A stretch of 64,000 nt of DNA from Opisthorchis felineus (taxonomy: Eukaryota; Platyhelminthes; Trematoda; Opisthorchiida; Opisthorchiidae). Every line of letters begins with the position of its first letter. Position 1 is the stretch's first letter. Both the position numbers and the translations under genes were made by a program. The stretch lies in contig SJOL01006601.1 of assembly GCA_004794785.1 (NCBI GenBank), positions 385,809-449,808 on the forward strand, in the 5' to 3' direction. Positions 4,857 through 62,229 of the stretch are shown piece after piece. Below the pieces are notes generated by a model, which saw only the letters and a program-made list of their open reading frames with translations, had not been told where the DNA came from and did not search any database.

Positions 4857-5545
4857 GCACACTACTCATGAGGGTGCTGAAAACTTTTTGAAAACCCATG
4901 ACAGGTTTCGACCTTCTAGGAGCTCATAAGGCAGGCTTAGTTCCCGATTTTCCGTCAAACTTATGTTCTGCTTGAAAGTCACATTGTGCGAAATTGTCCG
5001 AAATACACCTACTTGCAAACTAAGTTGTTGTTCATGGGATACTCAAACGAATCACAGCTCAACCCCTCGTTGATAGCAGTCTTCAATTGAATGTGCTGCA
5101 CAAAGGCTGCCTCAGGTTTCGGTTGACACGATAATCGAGATACATTTTCCTGATGGAACATGCTATTCATAAGGTTGCTGAATATTTCTCGAGAACCCAT
5201 AACCCGTTTCGCTGTTCATGGGGTTCATCCTGTATTCGTGTAGTTCACCAGATGCTTACAATATGGCAGTCATGTAGGGCTTAACGCTGATGGAAACTCA
5301 GACTACGCCCATCTGATGGGGTCAAAAAGAGCGAAACCCGCATGAGGCTGCAAAAGAATTTTCATCAACCTATAACTCACATTTGCATGATGAAACTGCC
5401 TGAGTTATAGACTTGCTGTGACACCTCGAATATCCTTCCCACGAGTTCATGAAGCGGCCTTTGTGCAGCACATCCGGTTGAGAAATATCATAACTGAGGG
5501 ATTCAGTGTAGTTTCTCGTTAACATCAGCTTGATTTACAAGTAGG
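4857..5545. repeat. Degenerate hammerhead-family repeat, tandem plus head-to-head
   Basis: This is a decayed copy of the ~300-bp hammerhead family. The left part (about 4857-5235) reads in the minus-sense orientation. The landmark 'CTCATRAGGKTGCTGAA' recurs about 303 bp apart (near 4866 and 5169), giving the monomer length and showing more than one tandem unit. The right part (about 5240-5545) is an inverted copy in plus sense, with the counterpart of 'TGTGCTGCACAAAGGC' readable on the minus strand near 5460. The ribozyme cores are mutated: minus strand at 4923-4929 has CUUAUGA for CUGAUGA, and plus strand at 5313-5319 has CUGAUGG. The GAAA boxes survive. None is expected to be active. Confidence 0.7.
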
Positions 5546-6488: not shown

Positions 6489-6686
6489 AAACGGACACTC
6501 ATTTCCACATCAATTTGGTTTTGCGGGAGACTTATCTGGGACCCACCTGAATCTCTCGTTTATGATGTTTTTAAGCAACTCAGTGTGCTGCACCAGGTCG
6601 CCTCATGTTTCAGTTGGTACGAAGATATCGCGATACATGTATAGATGTAACACACCACTCATAAGGTGGCTGAAAATTCTTCGAAA

Positions 6687-6729
6687 GCTCACGACCGGTT
6701 TCGCCCATCTTGGGGCTCATCAGGTAGGC
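6687..6729 (-). ncRNA. Type I hammerhead ribozyme motif
   Basis: Read on the minus strand. The 5' strand of helix I is GCCUAC (6729-6724), then the invariant CUGAUGA (6723-6717). Helix II is GCCC/GGGC closed by a six-base loop (6716-6703). GAAA follows (6702-6699). The minimal helix III ACCGGU is self-complementary (6699-6694). The cleavage-site C is 6693. The 3' strand of helix I is GUGAGC (6692-6687). Helix I has one C/A mismatch and one G-U pair. All invariant core bases are present. A zero-loop helix III is typical of hammerheads that act as dimers or in multimeric RNA. Activity is inferred, not shown. Confidence 0.78.
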
Positions 6730-6764
6730 GCAGTACCCGAGTTTCCGTTAACCTTAGGTTCTAG

Positions 6765-6801
6765 CTGATGAGCCCCAAGAAGGGCGAAACCGGTCGTGAG
6801 C
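6765..6801 (+). ncRNA. Hammerhead core, helix I lost at the repeat junction
   Basis: Plus strand: CUGAUGA (6765-6771), helix II GCCC/GGGC with loop (6772-6785), GAAA (6786-6789), helix III ACCGGU (6789-6794), cleavage C at 6795, then GUGAGC. The usual upstream strand GCCUAC is missing, because the inverted segment starts at or one base before CUGAUGA, so helix I cannot form in cis. It faces the ribozyme at 6687-6729 across a 41-nt loop and is likely inactive alone. Confidence 0.6.
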
Positions 6802-6840
6802 TGCCGAGAATTTTCAGCACCCTGATGAGTGGTGTATTAC

Positions 6841-7504
6841 GACCACCTCTCTTGTTTTTAGCTCAACGCCTGAGAACCTAAACAGCTTATCCCGCAATGA
6901 ACGAGTTAAGTCAAGGTGCCTTCTGCGAGTAGGGAGCACAGGTCGGTTGTATATTTCAACGTGAAACGTTGGCAAACACTCTGAAAACCAAAAGGCACAG
7001 AGCAGCTATTTATTCCTTGTTTATTCTTTGTGCGTCTCACGAACCCCTAGAATGATTTCTATTCTCAGCTATTCGGAGGAAAATTGAACACACCATCTTC
7101 GAGCTGCGGACATACGGCATGTGTCATCCTTCACAGGTGCTGACTCCTATTACATAACTCTGTTGACAGCTGATTTTCTGCATACAGTTTAACGGAAATA
7201 AGGGCACTTCTCATGCTAATGTGACGTCATTTCTGCGCAAATTACTTATAATTCATATGTACTGGGAAGATTTTGGGGCAAACTCCTAGATTTATTTTTG
7301 AATATTCAGTAAGATTTTGCTAAAAGACCTCGTTTCGAAAAGTTGGGCTCGTTCGACTCTATCGATGGTCACTAAATACTGGGAATCGCGCTTCTCATTC
7401 GCAATGTTAGTTGACCTATTCCCATTGGATTTTCATGAGGAGACAAAGTGAGACACTAATATGAATAACGGTATCAACAAAGGATGAAACTTGCGTGCTT
7501 GTAG
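6841..7504. other. No gene or clear repeat
   Basis: No recognisable coding or repeat sequence. Confidence 0.45.
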
Positions 7505-7950
7505 CATTTCACAAATTATTGGCCTGCCAATTCCTAGTAAACTGACTATGCTTCACAAAGGCTGCCTCCTGTGTCAGTTGAGTTGATATTCGAGATATCG
7601 CAGTACGATGTCCAAACACGACACACCACTCATAAGGTTGCTGAAAACTATTCGACAGCTCATGATTGATTTCACCTTGATTGGCGCTCATCAGGTAGGC
7701 ACAGTCTCCAAATGTCCGTCATCTTGACATCTGACTTGACCCAAAAACATGTGCAACCAAGCTTGAGCTGTCAAAGAGTTTTCAACAACCTTTTGGTCAA
7801 TACTTCTTTAAGAAAATGGATTTCGATACCTCGAAGGTCGTGCCAACTGAACCATGAGACGGTTCTTTTGTAGCAAATTTAGTTGATTAATATCAAAAAT
7901 CAGGGACTCAGCTGGGACTCAGATAAACATCTGAGCAATGTTTGCGTCTC
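7505..7950. repeat. Degenerate hammerhead-family foldback
   Basis: The left part (about 7505-7730) is in minus sense: the TTCACAAAGGCTGCC block, GATATTCGAGATATCGC, CACCACTCATAAGGTTGCTG and a decayed hammerhead. The right part (about 7765-7950) is inverted. The counterpart of 'CAGCTCATGATTG' appears as TTGAGCTGTC near 7763. The segments 'GCCAACTGAACCATGAG' (about 7843) and 'CTCAGCTGGGACTCAG' (about 7907) are reverse-strand versions of family landmarks. Boundaries are approximate. Confidence 0.7.
7658..7700 (-). ncRNA. Decayed hammerhead ribozyme
   Basis: On the minus strand CUGAUGA (7694-7688) and GAAA (7673-7670) are intact, with the usual GCCUAC helix I strand. Helix II (7687-7674) no longer pairs well, helix III has become AUCAAU, and helix I has two mismatches. 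It is probably an inactive relic. Confidence 0.5.
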
Positions 7951-10943: not shown

Positions 10944-11097
10944 GGAAAAAAGAGCGAAGTACACCAATTTGCAAACTAATTTGGTTTTGCGGGAGACTCA
11001 CCTGAATCCCTCCTTTATGAGCGACGAAACCGGTCGTGGGCTGTTGAAAAATTTTCAGCAACCTTATGAGTAGTGTATTAAGTCTAGGGAAAAAAGA
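10944..11097. repeat. Hammerhead-family insertion with a 10-bp TSD
   Basis: The 10-bp direct repeat GGAAAAAAGA at 10944-10953 and 11088-11097 flanks the element at 10954-11087. The left half is minus-sense sequence beginning at the family 3' terminus (GCGAAGTACACC, then TTTGGTTTTGCGGGAGAC). The right half (from about 11018) is plus-sense and begins inside the ribozyme: CGACGAAACCGGTC, then the GAAAAATTTTCAGCAACC and ATGAGTAGTGTATTA blocks. CUGAUGA and most of helix II are absent, so this is not a functional ribozyme. Confidence 0.85.
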
Positions 11098-14734: not shown

Positions 14735-14845
14735 CTGTTACTAGTGAACTACACTCATTTGCAAACAAATTTGGTTTTGCGAGGGACTCACCTGGAACCC
14801 AGCTGAATCTCTTATGAGTAGTGCATTATGAATTAACCTGTTACT
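14735..14845. repeat. Short hammerhead-family insertion with an 8-bp TSD
   Basis: CTGTTACT at 14735-14742 and 14838-14845 flanks a 95-bp insertion. The left side is minus-sense and begins at the family 3' terminus (AGTGAACTACACTC, TTTGGTTTTGCGAGGGAC, ACCTGGAACCCAGCTG). The right end is a very short plus-sense piece (CTTATGAGTAGTGCATTATG). The ribozyme is not included. Its two-part layout matches the larger foldback copies. Confidence 0.78.
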
Positions 14846-28907: not shown

Positions 28908-29121
28908 AAGGTAACTAGCGAAATACTAATTTGGTTTTGACGGGGGACTCACCTGGAACCCAGCTGAATCTCTCGTTAATGATGCTTTTAAGCAACTGAA
29001 TGTGCCGCACAAGGCCACCTCATGCTTCAGTTGGTACGATATTAGAGATATCGCGATAAATGTGTAGAAGTAATACACTACTCATAGGGTTGCTGTCTAA
29101 AAGTTCTCATTTAAGATAACT
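28908..29121 (-). repeat. Hammerhead-family insertion with a near-perfect 9-bp TSD
   Basis: AAGGTAACT (28908-28916) and AAGATAACT (29113-29121) flank 28917-29112. The insertion is one minus-sense piece starting at the family 3' terminus AGCGAAATAC and including TTGGTTTTGACGGGGGAC, GAACCCAGCTGAATCTCTCG, the CACCTCATGCTTCAGTTGG block and GATATCGCGATAAATGTG. It ends just after CACTACTCATAGGGTTGCTG, so it is 5'-truncated close to the ribozyme and carries no hammerhead. It shows no inversion. Confidence 0.82.
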
Positions 29122-32966: not shown

Positions 32967-33288
32967 ACCTTGTACCGTATAGACGTAATACACTACTCAC
33001 AAGGTTGCTGAAAATTCGACACCCTACGACCAGTTTCGCCTTTCTTGGGGCTCATCAGGTAGGCACAGTCCCCGAGTCTCCGTCAACCTTTTGTTCCACT
33101 TGAACCCAGATTACACGAAATTAGCGAAATACACTCATTTGCAAACAAATTTGGTTTTGTGGGAGACTCACCTGGAGCCCAGCCGCTTGAAAACATCATA
33201 AACGAGAAATTCAGATGGGTTCCAGGTGAATCTCCCGCAAAGCCAAATTTGTTTGCAAATGAGTGTATTTCGCTAAAACCTTGTACCG
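32967..33288. repeat. Hammerhead-family foldback with an 11-bp TSD
   Basis: ACCTTGTACCG at 32967-32977 and 33278-33288 flanks a 300-bp insertion. The left arm (32978-33183) is minus-sense. It holds the best ribozyme of the window and continues past the AGCGAAATAC landmark (33123), so it spans a monomer junction. The right arm (33184-33277) is plus-sense and ends at the family 3' terminus GTATTTCGCT plus AAA. Sequences 33123-33180 and 33217-33274 form a ~58-bp inverted repeat around a 36-nt loop. Because the left arm crosses a monomer junction, the template must have been longer than one 300-nt unit. Confidence 0.9.
33022..33064 (-). ncRNA. Type I hammerhead ribozyme, best-preserved copy
   Basis: Minus strand, 5' to 3'. 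Helix I strand is GCCUAC (33064-33059), then CUGAUGA (33058-33052). Helix II is GCCCCAAGAAAGGC (33051-33038, three strong pairs and a loop). GAAA is at 33037-33034. Helix III is ACUGGU (33034-33029) and the cleavage C is 33028. The second helix I strand is GUAGGG (33027-33022). Five contiguous Watson-Crick pairs (CCUAC/GUAGG) form helix I, supporting real ancestry rather than a chance match. Compared with 6687-6729, helix I regains full pairing while the core stays constant. The near-zero-loop helix III suggests cleavage of dimeric or multimeric RNA. Confidence 0.85.
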
Positions 33289-44790: not shown

Positions 44791-47650
44791 CCAACCAGTG
44801 CAGAATTTGTGTTCACACATAAACTGAACTCAGGAACGAAGAGCTCACTGGACAAGATAGCATCACTAAAAATGACACAGTAAAAAAATCGAGTACTGAA
44901 TTATGTGAATCGCTATTTATGGTGGCTTTTCGGCTATTCCTCATCTGAAACTTGTCTTCTTGGTCTGGACGAGAAGTGTTGGGCTGCAATAAGAATCGAC
45001 TCTGAACAGCTTTGCTTAGTGAAGTGTTTGCTCTTCTCTGCTAACTAACTTGTGATATCCTTTGGCACTAGGAAGCACAGAAGTTGCGATGCTGGGCCGG
45101 AATTCATTTTCGCAATTGACTACCACATCGTGCTGTGCCGATGGAACCCCTCACAGGTAGTTCATGTTGACTCATGCTCATCCACGTACTCGGTGCAAAC
45201 TCGCGGGAGTATGAATGAAGAGTGGATAGGGGGGAGAAAAGGTTCAAAGCCATAGACATTCCCAACGAGCGGCCCCTAACTGTCACATCAAATGAAATCC
45301 TGAGCCAGATGCAAAGGGTGGTCCGGGTCACTCGTGAGATTCTTTCCAAGCACGCACACATTGCTAGCTAGTACCAGTCATTATTCAGCTAGGCATGCAC
45401 AACAGTGGTCACAGAGGGTCATCTCGATCACTGTTGTGGGATTAGCCCTCCGGAATGTACAACGTTATTTGGATCATTTGCACATGGGTGTATGAAATAC
45501 ACATAAACAGAATGGGTAAGTATACATCAAATCATAAATGAGAACACTAAAGTACAATGTAATACGAACTGTTTAAAATAGGCCTGAGAAAAGAATGAAA
45601 CAATGGACAGCCTGTGGGAACCACCAACGACATTCTTAGGATAGGGAAATGATGACAATTAGGTAGCCGGTGCTCACAGACTTTACAAAAGTTTGTCTGG
45701 TGACCTGTATCAATAACGAAGAGCATGCATACACAGCCAGCTAATTGTAGCAATTACTCGGTTTGGTCCACAAAATCATCCTCAGATGAAGTCGCTCGGA
45801 GAACCGTTTCAGACTGGGCACTCCGGGCTATCAAAACGAGGCTTTAATGAAACAGATGAGGACATTCTAACAGTTAAACCCAAAAGAGGCTCACTGCATA
45901 TAAATCAGGGGACTTCATTGTCAATAAGCCGAAGCCAGAATACATCCCCATGGCGTTCTCTTGTTTCCATAGTTCGGCTTGATTCCGTCTACAAGGCAAT
46001 GATCATCAAAAGTCAATCCTAGTATAATCACAGGTTCAGCACACTGATTCCCTTGGTGTAGTAAGGTGTTTTGGTTGGTTTTAGCCCGCATGGCGATAGT
46101 CACATAAATTCCTTCCCAATGCCGTTGCAAGCCTAAACATATGATGACTTTAGAAGGATAAGGCCAAGGATAAGGCTTCACCGACGCATCGCCATGTGTC
46201 CGCTGGTGACCGATGCAGCGAACATAAACACAGTCACACTCTCTACAGATCCAGCCTGTTCCGTCTACAGATCCAACAGCTCCGATGGTGCTATTTCATC
46301 CTGCATGCTTTCTCTCTCTACCCTAAAGTTGGCGCTTGTTAAAATGGTGAACAAGAATCGTACTGTTACCCTCCACCACGTCGTGTTTTGGGCTTCCGCA
46401 TCCGATTTCATGAGATCCATGTCAGCAGCCTTTAAACTTTCGGCAAGAAAGTTCGAATAACAAAGCTTTTTGTCTGCCAGGGTTTCAGTTCTTAGTAGTC
46501 ATTTGATCTTACAGAAGCCTCCCCAGGACAATGTTTTCGTCCATTAGGGAAACCTGTCCAGCCACCATGGACGGCTGAATCTAACTGTCCCCTCTATTCT
46601 GTCAGAACATGCCCGTCAGAAGATCTCCGTGTCCGGCACTCGGTTAATCCGGCGAACAACAAGTGTCGGCCTCAGGCAATGCGTGTGAAAGCTGTCCAGT
46701 TACCAGATATTGTGTCGGAACATTTGTGGTAGCGCTCAAACAGACGACATATTCAAAGGAACCCAAGTGCATTACCTTAGATAAATGCCTTCGAGTTGAA
46801 GTAGGAATTTATAGTCCTTGTTAAATGAGAGATGGGGTCACCCTCGGGCCCGATTCCAGCTGATATATAAACGGCCAGGCTAGAAAGCACCACACTCAAC
46901 ACAGCAGCGTCTTCTGTGGAATGTTCATAAGATACATTGATACTACTTTATCAGCATGTGGTGCCGAGAATTCCTCTTTTAGAATCATTTAACGCGCGAA
47001 ACCAAAATCCATCTTGCAGTTGAAGCCATGGAACCTGAGGTTTACATGATGCCGAATAGGGTGGGCTACTGTAATACGTTCTTGGGCTTCGGTGTCGTTG
47101 AATAAAAGGGAAATTTTGTGCAATAGAAAAATGCATAAAATTTACACTGTAACACGAAGTCGAACTAAATGTAAACACCCTTATTAATGGTGCCGACTAT
47201 CCTGGTAGTTTCTTGAAAAAAATATGAAAGCAAGTAAAACGAGCATCGTAATCTCTCTAATGCCAATGTAGCTTGTTTATCTGAATCTGCGATGCAACTC
47301 TGACAGGGTAAGCTGGCCATTCACAGAGAAGCTCCCTCTCTCTCTCACTCCAAAAGCATATGTCACACAACCGGTCTACAATGCAAACCAGCTAGGTGAA
47401 ACTTTTATGCTATGCTTGTCATCCTAGTTCTTACATGTGCCCACATCCGGTAAAACAGTCTCATATGAAATGATGAAAATTATATCACAGTCGCTCAGAT
47501 CATTGCTAAAATCAACGAGATTTACATGGACGCTGACATATTCTGATGCCGGATATCATGCAGTCCTTACTAAGAAGACAGTGAACTTAGTTTAAAGACC
47601 CTCTACTGGTTGTTTATCCGGTCAAAGTCCAACGAACTGGCATCTCTAGC
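44791..47650. other. Upstream flank of beta-mannosidase, no supported gene
   Basis: No recognised gene. A TATATAA box (about 46862) lies 0.9 kb before the beta-mannosidase start and could be a fortuitous or transposon-derived promoter element. Frames at 45786-46022 and 46194-46460 are unrecognised. Confidence 0.4.
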
Positions 47651-47693
47651 GTATATAACCACGCAGTGTACTGCTCTAAGAAGGCACATCGCG

Positions 47694-47728
47694 CTGATTG
47701 GTCAGCCAGTTGGCGGGCATGTGATTGG
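47694..47728 (+). promoter_or_regulatory. Two inverted CCAAT (NF-Y-type) boxes upstream of beta-mannosidase
   Basis: ATTGG cores occur at 47697-47701 (within CTGATTGGTCAGC) and 47724-47728 (within GTGATTGGCTGAG), 27 bp apart. GTTGGCGGGC between them is a GC-rich, E2F-like element. NF-Y sites usually sit 60-100 bp before the transcription start, so initiation would fall near 47760-47800. That supports the ATG at 47801 and a short 5' UTR. A TATATAA at 47652 lies farther upstream and would conflict unless it is fortuitous. Confidence 0.5.
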
Positions 47729-47800
47729 CTGAGCATGGTACAGAACAGTGTATCAAAGGTCTACGTGTCGACACCTCTTCGGAAGACCGTTCCCGTCCAG

Positions 47801-48874
47801 ATGTCTATACGTACCGGATTAATTTTACTTTCGTTTTACTTGGTGTCGGCTCATGGACTACCATATCAGACACGCCGTTTGAAACTTTCCGGTGTATGGT
47901 ACCTTATTGGATCCAGCGGCAGTTGGCCCGTCGTGTGCGAGAACTCCGGTGTAGATGCGTACAGTACTCAGTGGATAGCCGGTCTAATTGGTGATCCTCT
48001 TGTCGACCAGCATGATACAAAATACCGATATATTGGCCGGGAAAACTGGACGTTTTTGCATCATTTTCGTTTTCCACCTACATTCGGCAATCCTAGTGGT
48101 ATCGAACTCCGTTGGGATGGAGTTGATACATTCTGCGATGTTACCCTGAATGATGTTCACCTCGGTTTCTTGAACAACAGTTTTCTGTCGTTTGAGTGGG
48201 CGGTAGAGAAACATATTAGACCAAATCGGCTCAATGCGCTTCTCCTTGATTGCCATTCGACAATCTTAGTTGCATCCGCCTTGGCCCAGGCAAGAAAAAA
48301 GAGTGGCTTACCCAAAGTGCCGCCGGAATGTTGGCCAGATAATTTCCATGGAGAATGCAACATTAATTTGATTCGCACGACGCAAGCCTCTTTTGGGTGG
48401 GACTGGGGTCCAGCGTTGCCCACACAAGGATTTTGGTCGCTCCCACAATTAATTCTTTCATATGCCTCTGTTCGTTTTGGTGAAGGTTTCAAATTCTACG
48501 CCATCCCTGGCCGGCCCAATGGTCGGGTGTCTTATTCAACTTGGAGTGCACACGCCGTTGTTGAAGTAGTACCAGTTGGAACGGACGAGGAAACTGTCCA
48601 AACCAGGCAAAGCTTTTGCATCAACTTTGATGTGGATAAATCCCTGAATATCGGGAATGTAGAGCAGTGTTTTGTAAATGTGACTCTTCGTGAGAACCGA
48701 GACTTTTCCATCTTACTGTTCGAACGCAAGGCGGGAATACAGCCCTGGTGGCCCAATGGAATCGAGACTGGCCCACGTACCTACACCCTTCAGATGAAAC
48801 TGACAACTTTAGAGGGTCACCTAATTGACCGTGCAAAACATCTGATTGGATTTCGGGAAGTTAAACTGGTGGAA
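47801..48874 (+). CDS. Lysosomal beta-mannosidase (GH2), exon 1 of a partial gene
   Basis: Encodes residues 1-358 of a beta-mannosidase, the lysosomal exoglycosidase that removes the single beta-linked mannose at the end of N-glycan breakdown. The start at 47801 gives a classic signal peptide (MSIRTGLILLSFYLVSAHG). The frame is open back to 47666, but that begins at GTG, and an ATG at 47735 would bury the signal. The N-terminal sugar-binding-like domain (about 22-190) holds GRENWTF, WDGVDTFCDVTLND, a conserved Cys pair (PPECWP, GECNI) and the family signature SFGWDWGPALPTQGFW. An immunoglobulin-like domain follows (about 195-345), with IQPWWPNG near its end and GFREVKLVE leading into the catalytic barrel. 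NXS/T sites (NWT, NNS, NVT) fit lysosomal glycosylation. The exon ends in phase 0 at GGAA/GTAAGT. Confidence 0.95.
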
Positions 48875-51800
48875 GTAAGTATGGCGTCAGTCAGTATGCT
48901 TTAAGTTTGCCAGTCATATTTTTAACAGATTTGATTCTTAGCTCCAACAATGAGTAGTTGAACAATCACGATATAGTGTGCTGATTCCAGCCGTTAGTTC
49001 TGATCAAATGGCGCTACTTGGCTGACCTTATATTGAGGGGTTTATGCTTACATTGTTGGCAAAATAATAGGCAACTCTGTAAAAGCATATTACACCCATT
49101 GTTGAAGATAATTTAACGTTAGAACACTCGAAAAGAGCAAACCCCCATACTACTCTCGATTTCGTAATTTATATATTCCTGTGAACTGGTGTTTTTTGTT
49201 GTTGATTAGTATAGAAAGAAAGATGTGGCGTTCCTGGAGAAAAACCTCCAAACGAACGGATCGAAACTTGGAAAGTACCAATAAGAATCGGCTCGCCTGA
49301 TACAAAAATGAGTTATTTCTAGCCACCGGCGCAAGTTGAAACGCACTGATAAGGCACTAGAAATCTTCTGAAAACATACGGAACATGAAACTTGCCTGGA
49401 TATTCCCACATGTTCATCAACACAGTCGACTGGTTGTCATTAAAATTACGGTCTTATTCAAATACGTGCAGCGAAATTGTCTAAAGAGCTATCGAGCTAC
49501 CGGATAGATCTACACTTGTCACATGACCAAGGCAGACTCGGATTTCGCAGGAATCGTTCACTACAGCATGTTGCTGGGCTTCACATTGTGGCGCCACTGC
49601 ATTTGATGCAGTGAACTGATATTGGTAGTACTCTGTAGATAACGCGAAACCACCCGCTAGGTTTGGTAACGTGACTAGTGCCGATAAAGAGTGACCCAAT
49701 CCAGCCTTGCATCGTGCTATTTAGCCTAGTAGTATCCGAATAAACGAGATGCTCATGTATTCTCTGAGCATGATCTTGGGTCGTGTTCCCTGAATTTGCC
49801 ACCAAACAAACCAGCTGGCTACGTGTTACCGTCTTTTAACCATTCATGTTTGCTCATTAAATTGTTTGTCCCCATCCTAACCATTAGATATTTACAGACC
49901 TGATGAGATTCTGAACATGGGAGTTGTCTATTTTGAGTAATATCGAAAAACACCAGTGATTATTTTGGAGTCGTACCATGTGCACCCTAAATGCGCATAA
50001 ATCCAACTCTTCGCTCAAATGCTCTAGTTAGTTTAATTGCGGATAGTGTGTTTACTCTTGAATGCTGTGACTGGTTCGCCCGACACCTCGAAGGACACCT
50101 CAGTAACTGTCCTGGTTGTATCAACCGGTTGAACTTCCTGTCAGCGCGTCCCAGTCAGGTAGGGCCACGGAGGTTGCAAACCTACTGGACAAATTCTGAT
50201 TAACTGTAAGTGGTTGCGGGACTTATGGAATTTACACTTTCCACTTCTCAATATTATTAACCATAGTAATAGTTTTCGGTGTTAGGTGCTATGGCCTCAG
50301 TGATTACATTTCATCTTTAGTGGTGTTTTTGTTTGATTTTATTTATACGGAGTGGTCCCTAATTCCAAATAACTTAAATGATGAGTGTTGGTGATCGGGG
50401 TTCTCCGTGTATTCGCCCTAGTACCTGTGGGTCATAGATGGTAACGGTGGTGGTAAGATGACAAGTCTCGATAAAGGAATAATCTCGGAAATCACCAGAA
50501 GCGCTTTGAAAACCCAAACTATGAGACGACCAAAATTTGTTTTAGACATTTGACCTACATTAGCTCATTTTGGGAAGCGGTGGAGACGGAACTCCCGCCA
50601 CAGCTCGTAGAAAACAATGTTGCGCATTCGAAAATGCTTTAAATTATATATTTTAAGCACATTACTACAGTTTGATATCAGTAAAATACTGTTGTTTGGT
50701 GGCACAACACTCGGGTACGCACCAAACTAAGCTGGTGGTGGATCCTGCGGTGGGGCTGTTCGTTGAGTCGTTTGATAGGCATGCTCTGGCAGTTTTGAAG
50801 TACAGGTTGTCGGACGCGACAGGATTACAGAAAAGATTCAGTGAAATATCTAACTTTGGTGAAAAACTGTACGTATAATCATGTCTCTGTAGGAACTCAA
50901 TTCATTGTGAAAAGGCCAAGTGCATTTTTGCCAAAATAATCCAGTTTTTACTGAGGTAGGATGGCATCATGGTAGTGTATCCATCCGAAAGGGCTTTCAA
51001 AACGGCTGATCTACGGATCAGCTTTTGTTAGCATCCATCAAGCGTCAGCCGAAGGTAAGCGCTGTACTGGGTGGGGAACAATCAATTCTGATATCACAAG
51101 AACAGACGTGTTTCACATGCAGGCGAACTTTCATCTTAACGCTGAATTTTTAATACCTCGTAGTCATTTTGTATAATCACGACATAAGGTGAACAATAGA
51201 TGTGCATTTTGATGCGGAACATTCATACTCATAAAGCTTTGTGATTCACTGGGGTTTTATCCTTTTATGTTTCCATAGAATATTTTTTATATTACCTGCT
51301 TTCACATCTTCCACTTATCTTCTTTCAAGCAAAATAGTAAACTACTCCGAAGGCTTGTGGAATAATTGTGTCGAAAAGTCAGTTGACTATTATGTTAGGA
51401 TAACAAAACTTTCGGACATGGATCTCTTCCTTTCCTTTTTTGGAAAAAAAACTGAACTTTCTGTAGTTTTTTAGCCACAAAGACAATGCGTGATTGTGGT
51501 GCGTAGCGATGCCATTGTGTTTTGATCTTGTAAGTCCAATAAATAGACGACGGCTACTTTAATGGAATCCGGTCGCTAGTTGATTAAGACGAACGATGTC
51601 GAATTTCACCTCCACTGACTGCCTAACGAGTTGATCTACTGTGTGTCCGAACTTTGGTGAATACCGGAACGAATCGATATTAGCCCGTATCCATCGAGTC
51701 TCTCTGTTCTGCCTCCATTTAGGGTTCGGAAGTTTACAGAAATCAACTTAAGTAAACAGGATTTGATAGTGTGGAAGGTGTTTAGCGATAAGTACAGAAT

Positions 51801-59385: not shown

Positions 59386-59537
59386 GTATTCACAACTCTG
59401 TCTGTAGCTTTTAATCGAAGTACAACTGTTTCAATGTAACATTCCAAAGCCTGAAGTACAAGCGTGTACGACTCTTTATGTAGTGTCCTAACAGTTTGTT
59501 TGCCTATCACTGTTCCCACTCTCTCCGTCTCTCACAG
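59386..59537 (+). other. Intron 2 of beta-mannosidase (152 bp)
   Basis: GTATTC donor and CTCTCACAG acceptor. Splicing restores codon 468 (AG+G, Arg) and joins conserved sequence on both sides. It is very short beside the 10.2-kb intron 1. Confidence 0.92.
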
Positions 59538-59868
59538 GAATGACACAATTGATACAGTCGAGAGAGAAATACATCGCCAAATACGGCGATTGCACGCCCA
59601 CCCATCCATCATTGTTTGGGCTACAGACAACGAGGTAAAACAAGCCATAAGTGATGGATGGTACGCAACGCCAATGGATGCGAGTATGTTGAACGCATTT
59701 AGAGGTAGATTTGTCGAATCTGTAGCTGAGGTGATCCGACAAGAAGAGCGTTTTGCGGGCAATCTGTCCAACAATGGCTTCTCTTATCAACCCAGGAGGT
59801 GTCTGATATCTTCACCGGGAAACGGATTGCTGACAGAACAAATGCATGGGCTAGATGAAAACCCACAG
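59538..59868 (+). CDS. Beta-mannosidase, exon 3 (last exon in window)
   Basis: Encodes residues 468-578. RLHAHPSIIVWATDNEV contains the predicted catalytic acid/base Glu500, directly after the conserved Asn. The usual W-S-G-N-N-E is W-A-T-D-N-E here, so the Gly and first Asn are replaced while the N-E pair is kept. CLISSPGNGLLTEQM and DENPQ match the S-S-P-x-N-G and N-P-N region that precedes the G-D-V-H-F-Y block of the family. The exon ends in phase 0 at CACAG/GTAATT. Mammalian enzymes are about 880 residues, so roughly 300 remain, including the nucleophile Glu and the C-terminal domains. I found no matching exon before the window ends, so the gene continues to the right. Confidence 0.94.
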
Positions 59869-61890
59869 GTAATTACTGGGATTTATTCTTCTGTAGTGTA
59901 GAAAGTTTTATCTTAAATTATGGGTCTGTTCGAGAAATCTGTAACTAGTTCACTGCGCTGTGCAGACCAGCTAGTATCCACAAGCCAAAACCCCTTCACA
60001 CATAAGGGAAGTCTTCGTCTGTGGAGCCAGTTCTCTTCTCCGCCAATGAGAAGTTACAAACGTCCCTGTCAGGGTGACCACCTGGAGCTACTAATCAAAC
60101 ATGGTTTATTTTGGGCTTGGCTTTACTATATAAATGTGTTTAAACGGCTGCCAAAATCTACGTGTTCCTATGTTTGGTTCCTCTAGAAAACGATAACCTC
60201 AGCCCTTTATTTGTCCTTTAATGTTTTTTAGTACCAAAGCCACCTCAGAAAAAATTTTTTGCTGGCCACTTCAGCTGAACTGTTCAAATAGGACAACTGT
60301 ACCAAGGACTTGAATACATGTATCTAGTTTCCAAGTTCTCTGGATGGATTTTTTCACGCAACGTGCAACGAACAATGTGAAAGATGCACATATACTTTGT
60401 AGTGGAGTAGCTCAATTAGTTTCACCAAATTTCTTTCAAATCTTGCGGTCTTTAGCGAGATGTTAACATCTACCTGGGATAGTGCAACAGGGTAGCAATA
60501 AAAAACGTCGTCGATAGTCTAAAGGTTTCGAGGGTTAGCTCAACAAGGATGCATATCTGTTACGAGCGGTTTCAACCACACTCATGAATGGATACCCTTC
60601 AACCGATGGAAACTTGCCCCACAGAATAAAGTCTTCTGGTGCCACAAGGTTGATCGTTATTCTTGTCCTTATTACTGTGCCCTCAGTTTTAGAACATTTC
60701 CTCAAAATATTGACTACTGAAGTCGGATGAAGTAGCGGTTTTAGGTTCAGTATACTTGTTGCACCGTCCGTGATGGAAGGCTTGTCATGACCCTAAACAA
60801 GGTAATCAGGTCAATTTTGTATGAATGCGTTGCACCAAGTAAAAATATTTCTCCTACCTCATGCAACCACCGTAAATTCAAGCTGTGTAACAGTCTTGGG
60901 CTCATTAATAATCAACACTTCCACATGACAAACCGAAGAAACTTCACTCCTACCTTAGCCAATAGTGATGAAGGTGATGCACACTCTGAGGTTCGCTTCG
61001 GCGGACTTTCTTGCTGCATCCCACGATTGTTGGCGTCTGCACCCTTGTTCACAACACCATCCTGCACGTGTGAATACTACGTCCAGACTCGCTGATATGC
61101 ACCAGAGATAACGGTAGACACAGAGCTTCCAAAGGATTTATCATCGATGTCTTGAAGCTTGAATGGGTTTTGTGAGGCCAGCCGCTTTATCGACGGAGCT
61201 GACGATACTGCACACTCTTTGTTCTAAGAGTCAGTTACAAGAGCCGTCCTTGCTAGCAAGTCTTATCCCATCCAGACTGGTGTTTCGCACACTATCTCAA
61301 ACAAAATTTGTGATTACACCTTGTGAATGCTGTATGATGACACGTCGCAAAATAAGTAAGTTATTTACTTTTTTTGGATTTTTTGACGGCGAATCATTTT
61401 TATATGAAAACTTGTTTGCTAGGCATACAGCTCGAAATTCGGTGCGTGGAATTTGTTCGTGAAAAATCCTTTACCAATGGTGAGCTTGTCAAATTCAATT
61501 TTAGGAGGTAAGATGACTTGTGCACGGATATTTCAAACGCAGCTCGGCCGTAACCCCTATGATATTAAGCTAGGCGGTCAGACATGAGCGAACGCATTTG
61601 CAAAAGTTCTCAAGTTCATATGACGTATGAGGAGTGTTGTGAATGACCAGATCAATCAGTGTAACGAAGGCGGAACACGTGATGTCAGCTAGACGAATAA
61701 AATCGATTCGTCACGGGGGACAGCAAAAGGGCGCATTAAATGTTCCAGCATAATGACAAAGGATAGAAACTGTTCACCGTTATGCCTATGCACAACCAGC
61801 TTGCAGTTATTTTTCAAAGTTACACGTTATAAAAAGACAAACGATGTCGTAACGAGGAGGTCGTTGGGACCGGCACTCGCGTACATTTTC

Positions 61891-62041: not shown

Positions 62042-62229
62042 AAGACAGAATAGTGAAATACACTCATTCGCAAACAAATTTGGTCTTGCGAGAGACTCAC
62101 CTGGAACCCAGCTGAATCTCTCGTTTGTAATGTTTCCAGGCAACTGAATGTGCTGCAGCAGGCCGCCTCATGTTTCAGTTGGTACGATATTCGAGATATC
62201 GCGACACATGTATATACGTAAGATAGAGT
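62042..62229 (-). repeat. Hammerhead-family insertion in intron 3
   Basis: A single minus-sense piece (about 62052-62219) starts at the family 3' terminus AGTGAAATACACTC. It includes TTTGGTCTTGCGAGAGAC, ACCTGGAACCCAGCTGAATC, CTCATGTTTCAGTTGGTACG and GATATCGCGACACATG, and is 5'-truncated before the ribozyme. AAGACAGAAT (62042-62051) and AAGATAGAGT (62220-62229) match at 8 of 10 positions and may be a worn target-site duplication. It lies antisense to the host gene. Confidence 0.75.

Follow-up and report, generated by a model that had tools for sequence, protein, structure and literature searches.

The closest described relatives of the repeat family analyzed here are the metazoan non-LTR retrozymes (Cervera & de la Pena 2020; PMC7229834). 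In the parts of that paper available to us, they share with this family a type I hammerhead, tandem units of ~300 bp, a GC content below 50%, an occurrence both as dispersed copies and in arrays, target site duplications (TSDs) of more than 4 bp, coexisting Penelope elements and a strongly self-paired monomer, and platyhelminths are listed among the hosts. The same source holds that the circular RNA needs a primer, which either the DNA target or a small cellular RNA would provide, and regards Penelope elements as a strong candidate for mobilizing retrozymes. The Sm-alpha and Sj-alpha repeats and the W-elements of Schistosoma, compared here by description only, likewise combine a flatworm host with a type I hammerhead and a short interspersed or satellite-like repeat (PMC8490949, the accessible part of which cites Ferbeyre 1998 and Laha 2000 on schistosome hammerhead repeats).

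A second group with parallels is formed by the Penelope-like elements, known to us from excerpts of PMC11167929 and PMC3846280. What is observed or proposed below has its counterparts there in head-to-head repeats, TSDs of 8 to 10 bp, a hammerhead with reduced helix III that acts as a dimer, reverse transcription that starts internally, in a stem-loop, cleavage and extension of both target strands, and AT-rich targets. Published Penelope insertions contain direct and head-to-head repeats and are flanked by 8- to 10-bp TSDs (PMC3846280), the Anolis Penelope enzyme acts on both target strands, which it cleaves as well as extends, and begins copying at a stem-loop within its RNA, and the Anolis element carries a minimal hammerhead at the start of its ORF (PMC11167929). 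In contrast to these elements, the unit described here contains, as judged by eye, no ORF, and its similarity to two Penelope loci of the same genome does not exceed chance.

The window, i.e., the whole 64,000-nucleotide stretch of Opisthorchis felineus DNA that was analyzed, contains the focal copy and several further insertions of the family (Table 1). Judging by those features that can be tested from sequence, the element would be a further metazoan non-LTR retrozyme.

Table 1. Family insertions and their parts in the window
Feature	Position	Strand	Basis or remark
Type I hammerhead ribozyme	33023..33063	-	Motif reading; helix III ACUGGU; Rfam HH9 score of 24.1 bits (below gathering)
C17, nucleotide after which cleavage is predicted (C33028)	33028..33028	-	Motif position
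Left TSD copy, 11 bp, ACCTTGTACCG	32967..32977	.	Exact repeat, abuts element end
Right TSD copy, ACCTTGTACCG	33278..33288	.	Exact repeat, abuts element end
Focal retrozyme insertion (putative), ~300 bp, two arms head to head	32978..33277	.	TSD-flanked
Arm with ribozyme, outward end near phase 53	32978..33183	-	Aligned segment 32977-33183, unit phase 151 to 53
Short arm in inverted orientation, lacking a ribozyme; outward end near phase 213	33185..33277	+	Aligned segment 33185-33276, unit phase 122 to 213; inverted repeat
Second insertion, two cores head to head (6693-6723 -, 6765-6795 +)	6495..6842	.	Motif and unit alignment
Older insertion, degenerate direct repeat ~301 bp apart and inverted arm	4860..5371	.	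Unit alignment
Older insertion, core 7694-7664 (-) with degraded helix III	7540..7916	.	Motif and unit alignment
Short head-to-head remnant	10954..11080	.	Unit alignment
Fragment, outward end near phase 208	14746..14812	-	Unit alignment
Fragment without ribozyme	28925..29095	-	Unit alignment
Fragment lacking a ribozyme, with its outward end near phase 208	62055..62221	-	Unit alignment

Read on the minus strand from 33063 to 33023, the focal ribozyme has the form CCUAC-CUGAUGA-GCCCCAAGAAAGGC-GAAA-CUGG-UC-GUAGG, with the order and spacing of a type I hammerhead: CUGAUGA, GAAA, and UH follow one another in the right order, and helix I is open-ended. The core occupies positions 33058-33028, the helix I strands are CCUAC (33063-33059) and GUAGG (33027-33023), and the ribozyme is predicted to cut after C33028. 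The bare pattern CTGATGA-N4..24-GAAA occurs 6 times in the window versus 1.24 times expected by shuffling, with none of 100 shuffles reaching 6, and the specific 31-mer core is found three times with at most 3 mismatches, a number seen in none of 100 shuffles (mean, 0.00). Motif reading and shuffling agree in supporting the minus-strand type I hammerhead with a CCUAC/GUAGG helix I that the initial annotation had placed here. The same annotation described this copy as well formed, which holds for its order, spacing, and helix I but not for helix II, where 3 pairs and a C.A mismatch stand against 4 pairs in the family form; compared with the family helix I (GCCUAC/GUGGGC), a U-A pair has been gained and the outermost G-C pair lost. 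The focal ribozyme is a slightly decayed copy, and better-formed ones, including the best, are found elsewhere. The additional copy annotated at 6723-6693 (-) with an imperfect helix I does have one C.A mismatch in this helix; head to head with it lies a third core, 6765-6795 (+), which the annotation did not include.

An Rfam scan of the whole window recognized no family at the gathering threshold. Below the gathering score of Hammerhead_HH9 (52 bits), this model matched the focal copy with an E value of 6.5e-4, the two cores of the insertion at 6495..6842 with 29.6 and 28.7 bits, and, at the highest scores of all those tested, array copies of the family (36.6 and 36.0 bits). Hence, the expected covariance-model matches to a hammerhead do exist, but all of them, in the window and in the array copies, are below gathering. 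The helix-preserving changes that had been anticipated among genomic copies did not exceed the level of shuffling. Of the 57 motif rows, all chosen beforehand for an intact core, 40 were aligned after removal of array-unit repeats and duplicate places. In this alignment, both sides of a pair had changed in 2 of 518 cells versus 2.2 +/- 1.3 in shuffles, and 88.4% of the cells were paired, a value reached by 349 of 500 shuffles; slid versions of the alignment gave 29 to 43%. We read this absence of covariation as the decay of dead insertions, as expected if insertions die on arrival; it gives no support to the helices, which rest on the family sequence instead. The ribozyme core, used as a pattern, had 0 matches in the viral contigs of IMG/VR.

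The family form of the ribozyme is GCCUAC-CUGAUGA-GCCC(CAAGAA)GGGC-GAA-A(CCGG)U-C/GUGGGC, where the slash marks the cut. Helix I comprises 6 bp, helix II 4 bp, and helix III is the palindrome ACCGGU which, as a single hairpin, amounts to one A-U pair closing the palindromic tetraloop CCGG. Because of this palindrome, cleavage is predicted to depend on dimers. Folding calculations point in the same direction: for two strands, the unconstrained minimum free energy (MFE) structure is the classical double hammerhead (-36.7 kcal/mol), whereas in one strand the hammerhead fold (-8.2 kcal/mol) loses to another fold (-16.3 kcal/mol), so that the family ribozyme would be expected to cleave as a dimer. 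For the focal copy, the double hammerhead fold (-18.6) falls just short of the best one (-19.6). A similar one-pair helix III with a palindromic tetraloop, for which dimer cleavage is likewise expected, has been described in the newt/axolotl satellite hammerhead HHR_Amex1, which, as far as the accessible part of PMC7229834 goes, differs in its 330-bp unit, its other helix sequences, and the phylum of its host. Folded as a circle, the 307-nt unit has an MFE of -100.0 kcal/mol, compared to -78.1 +/- 5.1 kcal/mol for dinucleotide shuffles, none of 200 of which was as low.

In the genome (630 Mb in 1,848 contigs), the exact 39-nt family ribozyme is found 1,885 times (933 + 952), with 0 matches for the reversed control. 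An exact 61-mer of a young unit, taken outside the ribozyme, is found 355 times (178 and 177; control, 0), and a search with the focal copy returned at least 40 scored places out of 4,543 first-look candidates. Among the 61-mer matches listed (99 counted of 355), which form 52 clusters on 44 contigs with up to 11 units in the largest, all 47 spacings are exactly 307 bp; same-strand neighbors less than 1 kb apart among 100 listed 39-mer matches of the 1,885 have spacings of 307 bp (13 cases) and 293 bp (10 cases), and the latter reveal a second unit length. Both tandem units, each with a hammerhead, fall within the ~150- to 450-bp range of retrozymes. Together with the circle-like self-pairing, the exact copies of the ribozyme and of the 61-mer and these spacings bear out the proposal of the initial annotation that the hammerhead lies inside a dispersed repeat of ~300 bp, and they fit a repeat of the retrozyme kind. 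In contrast to the retrozymes of PMC7229834, as described in its accessible part, single or incomplete insertions outnumber arrays here (37 of the 52 clusters among the matches listed are single).

Contigs C789, C835, and C1508 share an identical 307-nt unit, repeated exactly over 1,577, 1,521, and 1,591 bp; as these runs reach the edge of the DNA taken, the lengths are lower bounds. The three arrays lie in different outer flanks. The unit has a GC content of 46.6% and, by eye, contains no coding sequence, PBS, or PPT. In the window and 200 kb beside it, 39 insertions account for 3.0% of the 252,478 readable bases, which, scaled from this one contig, gives a rough figure of ~97,000 insertions genome-wide. 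The 293-bp units carry the same ribozyme, e.g., in C188:36221-37138 and C192:65084-66294. At L030, L034, and L042, identical 307-bp arrays adjoin diverged older copies of the family, and the switch from one to the other falls at phases 303, 247, and 270, respectively, i.e., no more than ~60 bases before the cleavage site; these junctions could reflect insertion into old copies or homogenization of the inner units.

The ends of the insertions were compared after aligning all segments to one real 307-nt unit, numbered so that the base directly following the cut has phase 0. Two data sets were used, namely, the window with L001 to L020, loci chosen without regard to the element, and loci selected by similarity; L021, which is the window's own place, was left out of the end, layout, TSD, and A-content counts, and L032, which is nearly identical to L031, was left out of the TSD, A-content, and end-site counts but kept in the layout count. 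Sense-3' ends fall in phases 39-59 or 200-219, i.e., in 13% of the unit length, in 37 of 56 segments of the former set and 47 of 57 segments of the latter, compared to 4 of 56 and 6 of 57 for 5' ends, although the significance of this clustering is overstated because the two ranges were set after viewing the histogram. The two sets agree, but they share one analysis. Neither preferred site coincides with the cleavage site; in the predicted structure of the 307-nt unit, the first lies in an 11-nt loop and the second at the 3' edge of a 5-nt loop. Inner (5') ends are not random either, as 26 of 113 are in phases 118-138, beside a predicted 9-bp hairpin, where the reverse transcriptase could stop or the transcript could start. 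An 11-nt motif seemingly shared by the two end sites (AGTGCATTACG and AGTGTATTTCG) was rejected, since its 9 of 11 matches in the young unit were equaled by 32 of 476 random site pairs.

Both outer ends are sense-3' in 34 of 76 insertions and both are 5' in one; in the other 42 of the 76, two outward 3' ends were not seen, some of these insertions being cut by locus ends or masked. Among the 100 listed 39-mer matches of 1,885, all 8 pairs of opposite-strand neighbors less than 1 kb apart run minus then plus, and the position of the head-to-head join varies from insertion to insertion. Exact flank repeats of at least 9 bp, in keeping with the more than 4 bp of retrozyme TSDs, are present in 19 of 68 insertions, as against 0.9% of 1,332 mismatched flank pairs, and those of at least 10 bp in 16 of 68, as against 0.4%; the repeat at L054 has 14 bp. 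No exact flank repeat of at least 9 bp was found in the other 49 of the 68. At a distance of 12 to 15 bp outside the ends, A accounts for 45 to 61% at one kind of end (n = 38) and 37 to 52% at the other (n = 46), with a background of 28%, and on either side the A-rich tracts are thus found beyond the TSD. Head-to-head repeats together with a TSD are the pattern of Penelope insertions in the available text of PMC3846280. Head-to-head insertions and two preferred end sites were not seen for retrozymes in the accessible part of PMC7229834.

Our preferred reading, to which we assign a probability of about two in three, is that the focal sequence represents a decayed copy of a metazoan non-LTR retrozyme that is non-autonomous and non-coding and has a unit of 307 nt (and a sister form of 293 nt); the circular or multimeric RNA of this retrozyme would be copied by a Penelope-type reverse transcriptase from two internal sites. 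The A-rich target flanks and TSDs of ~8 to 14 bp would also suit a retrozyme mobilized through twin priming by a LINE-type enzyme, in which case the head-to-head layout would be an L1-like 5' inversion; 5'-inverted insertions are indeed known for L1 and for trans-mobilized RNAs (PMC2912911, in the part available). However, the ends carry neither poly-A nor a simple tail, the start sites are two, fixed, and internal, and the A-rich tracts are located outside the TSD at both sides, all of which makes a LINE-type mobilizer unlikely.

Penelope-like elements are abundant in this genome. A search for GIY-YIG found six places, one of which, L055, contains the Pfam GIY-YIG domain (29.3 bits versus a cutoff of 22.6) in what we otherwise take to be the C-terminal part of a Penelope-type protein. 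With this 114-aa GIY-YIG piece as a query, all 150 scored candidates, the best 150 of 3,666 first-look candidates, were matches, and groups of 17 and 18 rows among these 150 have identical scores, which suggests recent activity. Open frames of up to 858 residues occur within the 89% group of these matches, and longer frames are listed too, some of them perhaps running through masked stretches. A ribozyme-like sequence stands at the start of the Penelope-type ORF at L055/L056 (contig C1143) and L057 (contig C909). In the tandem Penelope copies of L057 (C909:1300-1900), the ORF seems to start within CTGATGATGTCACC-TCGATT-GGTGATGAAACGTT, which, read by eye, is a putative minimal hammerhead. Rfam did not recognize this sequence and, as far as our searches show, has no family for the small Penelope-type hammerhead variants.

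This abundance, and the presence of hammerheads, head-to-head arrangement, and 8- to 10-bp TSDs in Penelope pseudo-LTRs (PMC11167929 and PMC3846280, as excerpted), would fit an explanation in which the repeat is not an independent element but the pseudo-LTR of an autonomous Penelope element, left behind as solo pseudo-LTRs. Against it stand the pure 307-nt unit arrays, which have no intervening coding sequence, and the two Penelope loci compared, L055-L056 and L057, which carry a different ribozyme-like sequence and match the retrozyme unit at chance level (best E values of 1.6 and 2.2). In addition, judged by ORF length alone, no reverse transcriptase or GIY-YIG ORF was noticed beside 29 selected loci, and we consider such an origin to be improbable. 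For the preferred reading, this lack of a sequence common to a Penelope locus and the monomer leaves specific recognition by the Penelope protein without an explanation. Finally, a DNA element with a dead ribozyme, be it satellite arrays disseminated through extrachromosomal circles or a cut-and-paste element of the MITE kind that has short terminal inverted repeats, might account for the inverted and faintly similar outward ends and, through DNA circles, for identical arrays at different places, but it is very hard to reconcile with a head-to-head junction that varies, whereas a cut-and-paste element passes on its inner structure, with flank repeats of varying length, and with a ribozyme core that is intact in 1,885 copies.

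Under the retrozyme reading, we infer a cycle of cleavage, circularization, and priming on both strands by an enzyme of the Penelope type, which would proceed as follows. Tandem retrozyme units would be transcribed, and neighboring hammerheads, paired through the palindrome ACCGGU of helix III, would cut as dimers 3' of GUC. Ligation of the unit-length RNA would give a strongly self-paired circle. A Penelope-type reverse transcriptase would then cleave both target strands at A-rich sites ~10 bp apart, and each target 3' end would prime copying of the circular or multimeric RNA at phases ~46-55 or ~207-219. Two cDNAs meeting head to head would produce a head-to-head insertion, and one cDNA running several times round the circle would produce a tandem array. 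The two internal end sites, the TSDs, and the head-to-head joins together suggest priming by the target, from both of its strands. A more general proposal, which we advance tentatively as it may well not hold, is that circular-RNA retroelements undergo dual target-primed reverse transcription, in which both nicked strands prime, each at one of two fixed start sites, and a single event writes the head-to-head insert.

If this is true, the outer ends of the inserts mark the start sites, so that the genome records where a circular RNA is primed, and the priming step left open in the retrozyme literature is addressed; the two start sites are narrow enough for direct biochemical testing. The layout of these insertions, shared with published Penelope ones, speaks to both the priming and the mobilizer. 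No description of this layout in retrozymes was found in the literature searched, which did not extend to supplements or to Cervera 2014 and Lunse 2017, reportedly studies on Penelope-like elements with minimal hammerheads.

Two further features of the window deserve mention. The long hairpin formed by the inverted ribozyme pair at 6687-6800 matches several microRNA precursor families with scores below gathering and could give rise to false microRNA annotation. Finally, the window contains exon-like open frames of a beta-mannosidase-like gene at 47591-48904 (+) and 59455-59901 (+), the latter resembling a glycosidase piece by look alone. The 380-aa mannosidase-like piece encoded by the former had eight protein matches, four of them named and all four from flatworms, with the best in Dicrocoelium dendriticum (46% identity), followed by Trichobilharzia, Protopolystoma, and Anoplocephala.
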